A stretch of 40,387 nucleotides of DNA from Sulfurimonas sp. GTDB lineage: Bacteria; Campylobacterota; Campylobacteria; Campylobacterales; Sulfurimonadaceae. The notes under the pieces were generated by a model. It was not told the origin of the DNA. It searched no databases and was given only the letters and a program-made list of their open reading frames with translations. The stretch covers positions 170,786-211,172 of the forward strand of contig JAQTWZ010000001.1 of the NCBI GenBank assembly GCA_028689055.1, in the 5' to 3' direction. The number at the start of each line of letters is the position of its first letter. The first letter of the stretch is position 1. Position numbers and translations under genes: made by a program. Below are positions 6,841-11,836 of this stretch, piece by piece.

Positions 6841-7056
6841 AGAACTTGTAAAGTTTCGTAAGCGTATAGGTCAAGATGGAGTCGATACTTCTTTGGGAAT
6901 TGGAATGGGACAAGTAGAAATTCAAAATATAGGACTCTGCTTTACGCTTGAAATGAACTTGAAATCTTGTTTTTCAGGGGCGACTATTTATAAGTCAATG
7001 TTGTTAAGAGTGGAGTTAAGCCAAAATCACGAAATAGAATTTTATGAAAAAAACTG
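6841..7056 (+). pseudogene. Transposase-like fragment (N-terminal part)
   Basis: The + frame reads ELVKFRKRIGQDGVDTSLGI and runs on without a stop for about 70 codons to a TGA near 7056. FRKRIG followed by GxD/E resembles the N-terminal block of IS5/IS1182-type transposases, but the rest does not match the catalytic core. It begins just after an eight-G run (about 6826-6833). Codons 15-34 are encoded by the 59-bp repeat also found at 10640. No start codon or ribosome site supports expression. This is a broken fragment, with the family only tentatively assigned. Confidence 0.4.
6882..6940 (+). repeat. 59-bp direct repeat, copy 1
   Basis: 56 of 59 bases match 10640-10698 in the same orientation. 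The three differences are at repeat positions 6, 14 and 27. Confidence 0.85.
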
Positions 7057-7540: not shown

Positions 7541-8188
7541 CTAACAAAAAGTTATCAACCTCTTTTCTATCCTCAACTCTTTAAATCCGAACTCTTTTTG
7601 TATCCAAAGAAAACTCTCTTTTGTGTAGAAAAATACATGCGTTGCGTCATTTTTGTAGTACCACTTACCAAAATCAATACTATCATCATAGATATCGCTC
7701 ATGAGATAAAGTTTCCCGCCATCGCCCAAAAGCCTCTTCAAAAGTGCGAACTCTTTGTGTGGATTGTAAAAATGCTCTATCACTTCACACGCCGCGACAT
7801 AGTCGTATTTTTTTTCTAAAAGTGCTGCGTTTGGATGAAAAAAGGGATCGTATTGTTCTATCTTATAGCCGGCGTCTTGCATGAGTTTGGAGACTATAGG
7901 CGCTCTTCCTGCTCCAAAATCCAGACCTTTTGCACTGCATTTGTACTCTTTTTGTATCGCTTGCGTCATCGGTGAGACGAACTTTTGATACCCTTTATCT
8001 TCGACATTGTCATCATGCAGCTCATAACGCGCTTTTTCCTGACTTGCGTTTGGGAGTTTTGCACTATCGGCAAAAATGGAGTGGCAGGTTTCACATAAAA
8101 AATAATCACACTCAAAACTTTTCGTCTTATCTCGATAAAAAAGTTTTGCTTTTTGTGAACAAAGCGGACATTTTTGTTCTTGCGTCAT
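7541..8188 (-). CDS. Class I SAM-dependent methyltransferase with N-terminal zinc ribbon
   Basis: 215-aa cytosolic protein. C7/C10 (CPLC) and C32/C35 (CETC) form a zinc-ribbon knuckle. The SAM-binding motif I is LDFGAG at 89-94, the acidic loop is EQYDPF, and ACEVIEHFYNP is the region typical of methyltransferase type 11/23 proteins. GKLYLMSDIYDD and the TYTKESF-like HVFFYTKESFLWIQKEFGF follow. The methyl acceptor is unknown. The start ATG overlaps the stop of the upstream phosphodiesterase by four bases (8185-8188), so it is the third gene of a reverse-strand operon. It contains AAACGCA words at 7827 and 8045, like native genes here. Confidence 0.88.
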   Translation of the reverse strand: MTQEQKCPLCSQKAKLFYRDKTKSFECDYFLCETCHSIFADSAKLPNASQEKARYELHDDNVEDKGYQKFVSPMTQAIQKEYKCSAKGLDFGAGRAPIVSKLMQDAGYKIEQYDPFFHPNAALLEKKYDYVAACEVIEHFYNPHKEFALLKRLLGDGGKLYLMSDIYDDSIDFGKWYYKNDATHVFFYTKESFLWIQKEFGFKELRIEKRLITFC

Positions 8189-8940
8189 GATTTGTTTTCC
8201 TTGTAAAGTGTGTCTGTAAAGATGGCATTTACACCCATAGCAAAAAGCTCATCTCTGCGCCTAGCGCTGTTGATGGTATAAACACCAACAAAAAAACCCT
8301 TATCTCTGAGCATCTTTACCGTTTGTCGATCGACAAGCAGATCATCAAGATTATAAACCTCTACTTGCAGTTCTTGTAGATAAGTGAAGAGATTTTGCGG
8401 ATGTGCACCTTCTACAAGTGCCGCAGTAGGGATTTGCGGCATTTTTGCTTTTATCAAACGCAGATAATCATGCCGAAATGAAGAGAGTAACACCCTATCC
8501 TCGACTTCATATTTTTGTACAAGTTCAAGCACAAGAGAGACAAAGAGTTCATCGTCAAAATATGCGCTGATATCTTTAAGCTCGATATTGAGATAAAGCC
8601 TTTTTTCTTTGACAAAGACAAGTGTCGCCTCTAGTGTGGGTATTTTTTCTCCCTCTTCGCACTCAAGCTTCAAAAGCTCTTCGTAGGAAAAATCACAAAC
8701 ATTATATGGCTTGCGTTTTTTAAACGCAGCGATATTTGCGACATTTGTGGTCCTCTCAAGCGTATCGTCGTGCATGAGCACAACAACTCTATCACGACTC
8801 AGTTGCACATCTATCTCGATAAAATCCCCTCTTCCCTCGCCTAAACGCAGTGCCTTTAAAGTGTTTTCAGGAGCGAGGCTTCTGGCTCCGCGATGTGCGC
8901 CGATAAGTCCAGATTTTGCAAAAAGCGTCAAAAAATTCAT
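8185..8940 (-). CDS. Glycerophosphodiester phosphodiesterase
   Basis: Hydrolyses glycerophosphodiesters to glycerol-3-phosphate and an alcohol. The 251-aa GDPD TIM barrel has GAHRGARSLAPENTLKAL at the N-terminus with catalytic H16-R17 and E25-N26, then EIDVQLSRDRVVVLMHDD with metal ligands E42 and D44 and the second catalytic H57. YLNIELKD and VGVYTINSARRRDELFAMGV are the later blocks. No signal peptide is seen, so it is probably cytosolic like UgpQ rather than periplasmic GlpQ. It overlaps the neighbours on both sides by four bases, coupling it to an acyltransferase gene and a methyltransferase; a lipid-turnover role is plausible. An inverted AAACGCA pair sits at 8712-8728. Confidence 0.93.
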   Translation of the reverse strand: MNFLTLFAKSGLIGAHRGARSLAPENTLKALRLGEGRGDFIEIDVQLSRDRVVVLMHDDTLERTTNVANIAAFKKRKPYNVCDFSYEELLKLECEEGEKIPTLEATLVFVKEKRLYLNIELKDISAYFDDELFVSLVLELVQKYEVEDRVLLSSFRHDYLRLIKAKMPQIPTAALVEGAHPQNLFTYLQELQVEVYNLDDLLVDRQTVKMLRDKGFFVGVYTINSARRRDELFAMGVNAIFTDTLYKENKS

Positions 8941-10136
8941 TGTGCGAATACTCCTTTTGTACGCAGTTCATGAGCTACGGCTTCTTTGGTGTTTTCGACG
9001 ATTTCCTCTACTCTTAGCCCTTTGGGATAGATGGGCTGGAGATAATGCACTTTTATTTTTCTGGGCAATGGAAATATTTTGCCGCTTCCAAGCGCTTCAA
9101 AACTTCCATCTATCATCACGGGAACAACAGGCACATTATAAATCTTCGCTAGCATCGCAAAAAAAGGACGAAATTCAAGGAGTTTTCTATCGCGTGTTCT
9201 TGCCCCTTCGGGAAAAATCACAAGGTTTTTTTTCTCCTGCAACGGCAATGCCACATACTGCATCGTGTGTTTGAGGTTTTCATTTGCGTCGATAAGTATC
9301 GTCTGTCCATTGTCTGCAACAGGTTTTAAAAGCTTCGTTCCAAAGACATTTTTGTACGCCAAAAAAAAGGTATTTGTTACAATTTTCCAAGGCAAAGAAG
9401 ACTCCATCAAAAAACCGTCAAGCATACTCTGATGCGAAGGGGCGAAGATACATGAGCGCTTTGGGATATTCTCTACGCCGGTGATTTCGAGACGAAAATA
9501 GAGTTTAAAAAGTGGTAAAAGAGTGATTTTGTAGAGTGACATGATAAAAGGAGAAGAACGCAATTTTTCGGCGATAGGCTCTTGTAAGACTTCTACAAGG
9601 CTTTTTCCTGCGTTTTGCACTCGCTCATGATGGGTTTTGATATAAGCATATAGTTCGTTTAAGCGCATCATTGACGCAAAATTTTTCTCATCTACAACAA
9701 CTCCGAAACTCTCGGCAACAAAGATAAAAAGCTCCACATAATCTATAGAATCAAGCCCCAAATCAAGCTCCAAATGTGAGGTGAACTCTATAGTTGCATC
9801 ACTGCGCTCATGTAAAAAAGAGAGAAGTTTTTGGTATATCGCATCCTCTTGCACAAAAGCACAAGAGAGCTCAAAGGCAGGATGAATAATCTCAAAACCA
9901 CGGATTTTCGCCTCTTCTTTTGCTTCAAGATTGTAAAGCTCTATCGCATACCAGCGAAGTTCTTCTTTGATGTTGATGATATTTACCCTTTGAAGCGCCT
10001 CAAAATCAGGATACATTTTCGCAAAAATCACTCCATTTTGAAGAGAAATTTTTATATCTTTGAGATAAGGCGTAAGTGATAAAATTCTTTGTTCTATCGT
10101 CTTAAAATCTATTAGACTTCTTTCATAACTCATCAT
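8937..10136 (-). CDS. Acyl-ligase C-terminal remnant fused to ACP and 1-acylglycerol-3-phosphate acyltransferase
   Basis: 399 aa in three parts. Residues 1-88 resemble the small C-terminal domain of AMP-forming acyl-CoA/acyl-ACP synthetases (IDFKTIEQRI, FAKMYPDFEALQRVNI, EAKIRGFEIIH). Residues about 95-175 are an acyl carrier protein domain with the phosphopantetheine serine S130 in LGLDSIDYVEL. Residues about 190-399 are a PlsC domain with the HQSMLD box (HX4D), FPEGARTRD and PVVPVMIDGSFE. The large AMP-binding domain that should precede the first part is absent, and the gene starts right where a decayed IS5 transposase begins (10133). The ACP and acyltransferase modules look intact, so phospholipid acylation is still plausible. 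Whether the ATG at 10136 is used is unknown. Confidence 0.8.
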   Translation of the reverse strand: MMSYERSLIDFKTIEQRILSLTPYLKDIKISLQNGVIFAKMYPDFEALQRVNIINIKEELRWYAIELYNLEAKEEAKIRGFEIIHPAFELSCAFVQEDAIYQKLLSFLHERSDATIEFTSHLELDLGLDSIDYVELFIFVAESFGVVVDEKNFASMMRLNELYAYIKTHHERVQNAGKSLVEVLQEPIAEKLRSSPFIMSLYKITLLPLFKLYFRLEITGVENIPKRSCIFAPSHQSMLDGFLMESSLPWKIVTNTFFLAYKNVFGTKLLKPVADNGQTILIDANENLKHTMQYVALPLQEKKNLVIFPEGARTRDRKLLEFRPFFAMLAKIYNVPVVPVMIDGSFEALGSGKIFPLPRKIKVHYLQPIYPKGLRVEEIVENTKEAVAHELRTKGVFAQ

Positions 10137-10569
10137 AAAACACCAATTTTTCTATCATGGTTTACAAACGCACAGATTAGATTGAAACGTAATCCGAACC
10201 GTTTTCGGTTGTTGTGATACGTTCCACTTAGTATTTTAAAGGTCTTGAGTCTTGTATTGGTATGCTCAACAATAATATGGACAGATACTTTGGCTTTATT
10301 GACTAGTTTATTTTCTTTGGTCAGAGGATGCAATTTACTCTTCTTTTAGGAAGTTCACTATTCGTATGAAGTGAATGGAGACCAAGATAGCCGTTGTCTA
10401 CTCTAATTTTGGTCTCATTTTTGATGGGCTTGACCTTCTGTATTTTTTCGTATTTATCCATACTTGCCCAAAGCAATTTTTGAACCACTATTTTTTTTGG
10501 GGGGGAAGGTGAAACCCCATTGACTTGGCGATCAAGATCATTAACCGTTTTATGCGAGTGTTGCTTCAA
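10133..10569 (-). pseudogene. IS5-family transposase, frameshifted C-terminal half
   Basis: Two overlapping reverse-strand frames join into one transposase tail. The upstream frame (10569-10321) gives KIRVDNGYLGLHSLHTNSEL, matching the DxGYxG region of IS5-type DDE enzymes. After a frameshift near 10330 the second frame (10333-10133) gives HPLTKENKLVNKAKVSVHII, then VEHTNTRLKTFKILSGTYHN and RKRFGLRFNLICAFVN. These carry the catalytic glutamate block (VEH...RLK) and the usual C-terminus. The N-terminal half with the first two aspartates is missing or unrecognisable, and a T8/G7 homopolymer at about 10489-10505 disrupts the upstream part. It is not functional. Confidence 0.8.
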
Positions 10570-10639
10570 AAGAGAACTTCACACAATAAGGTCTATTCAC
10601 TTCATTAGTGTTTGATTATCAGAGTGTGGCAAAACTCAT

Positions 10640-10698
10640 TCGATGCTTCTTTAGGAATTGGAATGTGACAAGTAGAAATTCAAAATATAGGACTCTGC
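10640..10698 (+). repeat. 59-bp direct repeat, copy 2
   Basis: 56 of 59 bases match 6882-6940. This copy has an in-frame TGA where copy 1 reads through. The remaining gap on either side (10570-10639 and 10699-10810) shows no gene I can support. Confidence 0.85.
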
Positions 10699-10810
10699 AT
10701 GTGTTTCTTTAAACTTTCTCATAGAAATAAGATTTTTGATAGTTTGAGTATTTTTTTAAACCTTTTATATCTTTGGCTCTATTTTTTAAGTCAATGGGAT
10801 TGGGGGCTCT

Positions 10811-11836
10811 TTAAAGAAAGATTATCTTCGATCCAACATATAAAAACTCCAACTCATCCGAGCCTTCTTTGTATAAAAGCGGAGAGTCGAGATCTATATA
10901 AGCTATCACATCATCAAACGCCATCGCCAAATGCAAGGCTGCGTTTATGGAAAGCGGACCTTCCAACATAGAGCCCAACATACATCTGATACCGTGTGCT
11001 CTTGCATACTTTAGTATCTCCACCGCCTTACTTATGCCGCCGCACTTCATGAGCTTGATATTTATCATATCTGCGTATCTGCCCTCATGTACTTTGATAA
11101 CATCTTCAAGTGTAAAAACCGCTTCATCCGCAAGGATAGGGATAGGACTCTCCAGTGTGATTTTTTTCAGTCCAGCAAGGTCATGAGCTACGACTGGTTG
11201 TTCGATGAGTTCTATTTTTATCCCTTTTACCGCGTTTATAAAAAGCAGCGACTCTTCCAGACTCCACGCCTGATTTGCATCGACAAGTATCTTCACTTTT
11301 GGTAACTCAAACGCAAGCTCCGATATCACCGCGATAGCGTGTTTGACGTCACTGCCTACTTTGACTTTGAGGATGTTTATCCCCGCATCATACGCCTCTT
11401 TTGCATCACACAGCATTGTATCAAGCGTACCTAGACTGATAGTAATATCGGTTTGAAGTTCTCTAGCTCTTTCGCCTCCAAGAAACTTATAAAGCGGCTC
11501 ACCAAACTCTTGTGCCAAAAGCGAAACAAACGCCATATCAAGCGCAGCCTTTGCGGAACTGCCTATATTTTTCTGCTCATGAAGCAGTTGCAGGGCTTCT
11601 TTGGGATATTTTCCTTGAAGTGCTTCTTTGACACTTTCTATTGAAGTGAGGATATCTTCTATCCCTTCATTTGTTATAGCCTTCGTTGCGGGTGCTTCCC
11701 CATAAGCAAAACTTGCGTTTTGACACACGACTTTTACCCTGACAAACTCCACGGCTTCTACGCGACGAAGTGCCGTAACAAAAGGGGTTTTGAGTGCAAT
11801 ACTTTTGACCTCCGTATCTATAGATGTTATTTTCAT
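10811..11836 (-). CDS. Dipeptide epimerase (L-Ala-D/L-Glu epimerase-like), enolase superfamily
   Basis: 341-aa cytosolic enzyme of the MR/MLE group of the enolase superfamily, likely converting L-Ala-D-Glu from peptidoglycan recycling to L-Ala-L-Glu. The acid-base lysines are in KVK (K157, K159) and IKLMKCGG (K261 or K264). Metal ligands are D186 (VDANQAW), E212 (IEQP) and D237 (ADEAV). GSMLEGPLSINAALHLAMAF and YIDLDSP are the usual C-terminal substrate blocks. The start overlaps the upstream DUF819 gene by four bases. Substrate assignment rests on overall resemblance; related epimerases with other dipeptide preferences cannot be excluded. Confidence 0.88.
   Translation of the reverse strand: MKITSIDTEVKSIALKTPFVTALRRVEAVEFVRVKVVCQNASFAYGEAPATKAITNEGIEDILTSIESVKEALQGKYPKEALQLLHEQKNIGSSAKAALDMAFVSLLAQEFGEPLYKFLGGERARELQTDITISLGTLDTMLCDAKEAYDAGINILKVKVGSDVKHAIAVISELAFELPKVKILVDANQAWSLEESLLFINAVKGIKIELIEQPVVAHDLAGLKKITLESPIPILADEAVFTLEDVIKVHEGRYADMINIKLMKCGGISKAVEILKYARAHGIRCMLGSMLEGPLSINAALHLAMAFDDVIAYIDLDSPLLYKEGSDELEFLYVGSKIIFL

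Follow-up and report, generated by a model that had tools for sequence, protein, structure and literature searches.

The window, meaning the whole 40,387-nucleotide stretch of Sulfurimonas sp. DNA that was analyzed, carries on its minus strand a gene that joins a ligase remnant to an acyl carrier protein (ACP) and a PlsC-type acyltransferase, followed by a gene for a glycerophosphodiester phosphodiesterase (GDPD), with relics of mobile elements at the 5′ edge (Table 1). The ATG (10136–10134) is overlapped by the TGA stop codon of a transposase frame (10133–10135). An earlier note on this DNA had reported this open reading frame (ORF), its start, the overlapping stop, the ACP with Ser130 and the PlsC domain, and all of these were confirmed by the ORF table and by Pfam/NCBIfam searches. 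It was also correct that no AMP-binding domain lies beyond the insertion sequence (IS), where the next gene (10811–11836) encodes an Ala-Glu-epimerase-like enzyme of the enolase superfamily and not a ligase. On the other side, a methyltransferase-like gene (7541–8188, PF13489) overlaps the GDPD gene, and such a gene also adjoins GDPD at loci L005, L006, and L149. Positions 6882–6940 hold a shorter copy related to the 168-bp stretch of contig C63 listed in the table, part of a mosaic of mobile-element relics.

Table 1. Features at the ACP-acyltransferase locus, with positions in the window
Feature	Positions	Strand	Basis
Ligase-less (headless) ACP-acyltransferase, 399 aa	8937..10136	minus	ORF, Pfam/NCBIfam, orthologues, AlphaFold2 model (pLDDT 88.8)
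Relic of ANL (AMP-forming ligase) C-terminal subdomain, residues 9–88, catalytic A10 segment deleted	9873..10112	minus	alignment to full-length G004 protein, domain-alone model, A10 Lys absent
ACP domain, residues 97–170; phosphopantetheine Ser130 codon 9747–9749	9627..9848	minus	PF00550 (weak), NCBIfam ACP models (5e-7), ACP structures (Z up to 11.2)
PlsC-type acyltransferase domain, residues 206–390; HQSMLD (HX4D) and FPEGAR motifs	8967..9521	minus	PF01553 (5e-22); PlsC structure 5kym (Z 19.7)
GDPD	8185..8940	minus	PF03009 (9.8e-42); 4-bp overlap with ACP-acyltransferase gene
Decayed IS5-type element; right terminal repeat 10114–10129, left repeat absent, ~0.5 kb lost internally	10114..10494	minus	comparison with 896-bp copy in G549
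IS-derived start region ATGATGAGTTATGAAAGAAGTCT, first 7–8 codons of the present ORF	10114..10136	minus	IS terminal repeat and 71% IS homology run through
Second mobile-element relic	10531..10698		168 bp identical to G000 contig C63
Third repeat, sharp start at 10699	10699..10793		copies on contigs C77, C31, and C60

An AlphaFold2 model built on 38 sequences showed three folded parts. By structure comparison of this model, the last one has the PlsC fold (match to the Thermotoga enzyme over 193 residues), in agreement with the Pfam match of PF01553 at residues 215–342, and the middle one is a four-helix ACP, for which the PP-binding match (residues 106–166, E 0.0014) fell 1.5 bits below the gathering cut-off. 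Ser130 sits in the motif LDSIDYVEL. The phosphopantetheine serine (DS(L/I)) is kept in 39 of 41 ligase-less rows (one X and one gap in the others), as are the His and Asp of HX4D in 41/41 and the Glu of FPEG in 40/41 (one gap). That ACP helix II might distinguish full-length from ligase-less proteins was considered and rejected, as the helix is acidic and FAS-like in both. The adenylation domain PF00501 was absent by Pfam from the window protein and from the ligase-less protein of locus L024, and the window protein scored below the cut-offs of all three Aas-type models (69.1, 42.4, and 36 bits for PRK08633, PRK06814, and PRK08043 against 1221, 1349, and 886). The protein consists of an ANL-ligase C-subdomain, an ACP and a PlsC acyltransferase, and we regard it as probable (about 0.75) that it belongs to a conserved family of headless ACP-acyltransferases with the history outlined below.

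The assignment of the N-terminal part, which the earlier note had also derived from the C-subdomain of AMP-forming acyl ligases, is best borne out by continuous homology (residues 14–391, ~35% identity) to an 808-aa protein of genome G004. When modeled alone, the first 90 residues gave a pLDDT of 89.7 and folded as an ANL C-terminal subdomain; the VIA rows listed for this model were ANL enzymes by title in 50/50 cases (Z 8.5–9.7), and ANL enzymes also ranked first in Foldseek, with a best E of only 5e-3. Sequence profiles are weak here: Pfam found no AMP-binding_C in the window protein, and across the 38-row alignment (G004 piece included) AMP-binding_C_3 was hit in two rows and AMP-binding_C in one, while the N-terminal profile found no ANL enzyme in a sequence search of the PDB. 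The protein had been thought to open in the middle of this domain. Instead, the ligase-less proteins begin directly past the ANL hinge, which ends ~10 residues upstream in the aligned full-length proteins, and the 90-residue model takes the fold of this subdomain. The catalytic lysine of motif A10 (LPKTRLGK in G004) was present in 5/5 full-length rows vs. 0/40 ligase-less rows, whose corresponding column holds a gap (24), E (8), D (2), or one each of G, Q, R, L, S, and V. As some ligase-less rows still show a remnant of the motif (e.g., LPKT..GEVD), the ligase was lost, not gained.

Matches to the protein were obtained from nine loci on named contigs and, among the sampled genomes, from 14/298 of the order, 18/397 of the phylum, and 32/100 of the genus, some of them being fragments at contig ends; G004 contributed the only long form in these sets. 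Numerous Sulfurimonas, together with a few Campylobacterales outside the genus, share the ligase-less architecture and its start, and 37 of the 41 ligase-less rows (window and fragments included) are 382–434 aa long. In the nearest relatives, at 86, 77, and 71% identity, the protein is just as short, pgsA is divergent upstream, and there is no IS. The G004 protein has AMP-binding, AMP-binding_C_3, PP-binding, and Acyltransferase domains (Pfam). Complete AMP-binding-ACP-PlsC proteins were found in this one Campylobacterales genome, in two fusobacteria (Ilyobacter and Fusobacterium vincentii) and in Rubrobacter, relatives outside the phylum having been sought in a plasmid collection only, and PF00501 was present in 4/4 full-length proteins scanned; longer forms, for which the earlier note had suggested looking, do therefore exist. 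Plasmid pILYOP01 of Ilyobacter polytropus (L141:3284-8451) carries two such full-length genes in tandem. In a tree of the 46-row alignment minus three partial rows (rows < 255 aa and one G004 copy cut by the locus end had already been removed), the ligase-less rows all fell on one side of a branch whose support (81/99) is not strong, with few and long outgroups. Judging from the remnant A10 motif and the same-start orthologues, the loss of the adenylation domain is old and shared.

What the mobile element did to the window gene is confined to its 5′ edge. The C-terminus of an IS5/DDE_Tnp_4 transposase is encoded within 10133–10333 (NF033581, 5.6e-11; PF13359, 4.9e-6) and, together with the right repeat, is all that remains of the element, the left repeat being missing. 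An 896-bp relative in G549 has the terminal repeats AGACTTCTTGCATAAC and GTTATGCAAGAAGTCT with a 3-bp ATT on both sides; its match to the window (321 bp, 71%) has the right repeat (10114–10129, 1 mismatch in 16) at its end. The boundary between IS and gene, previously set at 10136, thus has to be moved, since the terminal repeat lies inside the ORF. A decayed IS5 element is indeed present at the gene start, as proposed, although the DNA at 10531–10698 and 10699–10793 belongs to two other repeats. Gene-derived sequence resumes as AATAGATTTT, where L005 has ATGAAAAAAATAATAGATTTT, the exact junction being uncertain by a few bases. Relatives begin with MKK/MEK-IIDF at the native start, and the window lacks the promoter-like TTGACA that stands 35 bp ahead of the native ATG in L005, L083, and L006. 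(In these three loci a transcript from so close an element would have no leader or almost none.) As IS DNA reaches 10114 and is followed by AATAGATTTT, the gene has lost its native ATG, some four codons and the TTGACA; the present ORF begins with ATGATGAGTTATGAAAGAAGTCT from the IS, which gives an in-frame ATGATG. In the window genome pgsA-rseP is located on contig C39 and its intergenic homology to L005 stops midway, so a rearrangement also separated the neighbors. In G549, the related IS also abuts the 5′ end of an HsdM-like gene (L148:2454-2560), and its terminal repeat provides the ATG of an ORF that begins MQEVYY; PF12161 starts there at residue 20, and relatives align from residues 13–18. 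An IS end that supplies a start codon was therefore seen in two cases.

The headless family keeps a recurrent neighborhood. Among 26 ligase-less loci with wider flanks, 23 have GDPD downstream in the same orientation (the other three have < 2.2 kb of downstream sequence) and 14 have a divergent pgsA upstream, with other genes elsewhere; in 17, the immediate neighbor on the opposite strand encodes an Atg22-like MFS transporter. In the window the MFS gene is not beside the ACP-acyltransferase gene. Against the 86%-identical relative L005, omega was 0.20 for the N-terminal part, 0.16 for the ACP, 0.22 for the linker, and 0.10 for the PlsC domain. These are simple Nei-Gojobori counts, several pairs having high or saturated dS, and by them all parts of the protein are still under purifying selection.

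Two readings of the damage at the gene start have to be weighed. According to the earlier note, an IS5-type insertion beheaded the gene in the window lineage. The 5′ edge (promoter, ATG, and ~four codons) was in fact cut, the IS sits exactly there and overlaps the start, and long relatives exist. The AMP-binding domain, however, was not what the insertion took: the 86, 77, and 71% identical relatives are equally short and have the divergent pgsA without any IS, homology to the window IS or the G549 IS was found upstream of 0/35 ligase-less loci of the same architecture and start (up to 1.5 kb examined; start positions set manually, L097 and L096 a few codons off the ATG and L018 without an ATG at the aligned place), and the A10 lysine has disappeared from 40/40 ligase-less rows. 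Removal of the front domain by the IS is accordingly extremely improbable, and as a cause of the domain loss the IS is ruled out by the IS-free orthologues of the same length and the loss of the A10 lysine. The order of events is the reverse of that proposed before, with a shared domain loss first and later IS damage to the edge only. A separate question is whether the window gene is a dying copy, deprived of promoter and native start, its in-frame ATG from the IS being mere luck without expression. IS DNA has replaced the native promoter-like element, and a promoter scan for the new start gave nothing above chance (1 site vs. 2.2 in shuffles), so this copy may be silent. Yet its ORF is intact over 1,200 bp beside an IS that has decayed by losing 0.5 kb and a terminal repeat and by breaks in its frame, and the low omega against L005 (0.10–0.22) points the same way, albeit without proving it, as the insertion may be younger than the split from L005. 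We therefore consider a dying copy unlikely.

The absence of an adenylation domain agrees with the earlier suggestion of an ACP-acyltransferase that needs to be charged from elsewhere. A separate ligase gene, another proposed check, was found in the window genome, where contig C57 encodes a 550-aa AMP-binding protein (PF00501). The enzyme could accordingly be split, with the 550-aa ligase loading the ACP in trans for fatty-acid recycling like that of Aas. This ligase is present in 18/32 genus genomes with the ACP-acyltransferase gene, but it is commoner in those without it (56/68; Fisher p 0.0076, kinship uncorrected). PF00501 was further searched in 13 chosen genomes. Nine came from the 14 that carry the gene and lack the 550-aa ligase, three were additional carriers of the gene, and the last was G004. 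Seven of those nine had one PF00501 match (G220 had three and G499 two), that is, a single AMP-binding match in 7/12 ligase-less genomes scanned, and in 7/7 this match was an acetate-CoA ligase above the TIGR02188 cut-off. With acetate-CoA ligase as the lone AMP-binding enzyme, a fatty-acyl ANL ligase is not likely to charge the ACP in these seven genomes. The 550-aa ligase as an obligate partner is weakened, and we regard the split enzyme as quite improbable. Our best inference is that type II fatty-acid synthesis would charge the ACP, or that it would be loaded by transfer from free acyl-ACP, at least in the seven genomes. The N-terminal part, in turn, might have gone from relic to active module, serving the ACP or the membrane in docking or gating: Trp62 and Asn69 are invariant in the 38-row alignment, the region A39–K77 is well conserved, and omega of the N-terminal part was 0.12–0.23 over six pairs. 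Against this stand its evolution at about twice the rate of PlsC in the comparison with L005 and the lack of a known partner, and we rate an active module as a serious possibility with the odds somewhat against it.

To our knowledge, Aas has no built-in ACP. The full-length AMP-binding-ACP-PlsC proteins (Ilyobacter WP_013388596.1 and WP_013388595.1, Fusobacterium, and Rubrobacter WP_084264133.1) show the same order of ANL C-subdomain, ACP, and PlsC as the window protein, to which the G004 and fusobacterial rows are 33–37% identical over the shared part; unlike it, they carry PF00501 and the A10 lysine, and no GDPD match lies nearby (0/4 loci). In E. coli Aas and LplT-Aas lysophospholipid remodeling (PMC11416262), a PlsC-like domain is likewise linked to a ligase-derived domain, but the acyl-ACP synthetase domain of Aas is functional, whereas the window protein reaches 36–69 bits against Aas-type cut-offs of 886–1349. 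By analogy, a lipid-remodeling role is proposed for the headless ACP-acyltransferase. Thermotoga PlsC (5kym) shares the fold and the HX4D/FPEG motifs and differs in having neither a fused ACP nor an ANL piece. The window genome also has two short PlsC-like open frames (233 and 242 aa). On contig C57 of G000, a 609-aa MFS + PlsC fusion (L050:7529-9358; PF07690, PF01553) resembles an LplT-acyltransferase fusion without the ligase domain and is a second ligase-less candidate for lipid remodeling in G000. The ANL C-subdomain is also followed by a carrier protein in fatty acyl-AMP ligases and CAR/NRPS A-PCP didomains (cf. PMC8460268 and PMC11837247). A-PCP structures match the window model across both parts, but the window protein differs from these didomains in that it has no adenylation domain and a lipid acyltransferase comes after. 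No description of the ligase-less ACP-acyltransferase architecture was found in the open-licence literature searched; PMC7242380 does not concern this protein, and no matching case was seen among papers on transposons.

From these comparisons, a history of the headless family can be outlined. The ancestor would have been a three-part enzyme composed of an AMP-forming fatty acid ligase, a built-in ACP and a PlsC acyltransferase, from which a single event presumably removed the adenylation domain, at the hinge preceding the ANL C-subdomain and prior to the divergence of the Sulfurimonas-type lineages. The C-subdomain would then persist as an N-terminal cap without catalytic function, the catalytic lysine being gone and the A10 segment mutated or deleted. 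Holo-ACP, made by AcpS, would receive its acyl chain from type II fatty-acid synthesis or, by transfer, from free acyl-ACP. The HX4D site would pass this chain in cis to lysophospholipid or lysophosphatidate, as an accessory route next to the glycerophosphodiester phosphodiesterase. In the window lineage, an IS5-type element would later have inserted between about codons 4 and 5, pgsA would have become separated from the gene and the native promoter and ATG lost, and the IS end would now keep the ORF open with its in-frame ATGATG. In a bolder version, a self-feeding fatty-acid-recycling enzyme would have shed its ligase and been rewired to being fed by fatty-acid synthesis, the C-subdomain staying on as a cap that docks or gates the enzyme's own tethered ACP. 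The enzyme would have spread through Sulfurimonas-type Campylobacterales in an accessory role in membrane repair. In the window species an IS end would then have taken the place of its promoter and start, with translation possibly coupled to the transposase relic via the ATGA overlap. This version is tentative and, taken as a whole, doubtful.

The start region of the window gene illustrates that an IS can remove a promoter and a start codon while the frame stays open. The greater interest, in our opinion, lies in the ligase-less ACP-acyltransferase family rather than in the IS. The graded decay of A10 represents a domain-loss event that retained half a ligase, and an ACP fused to a lipid acyltransferase in genomes without a candidate fatty-acyl ligase opens a testable question: whether type II fatty-acid synthesis can charge a tethered ACP in trans and the ACP then unload in cis into phospholipid.
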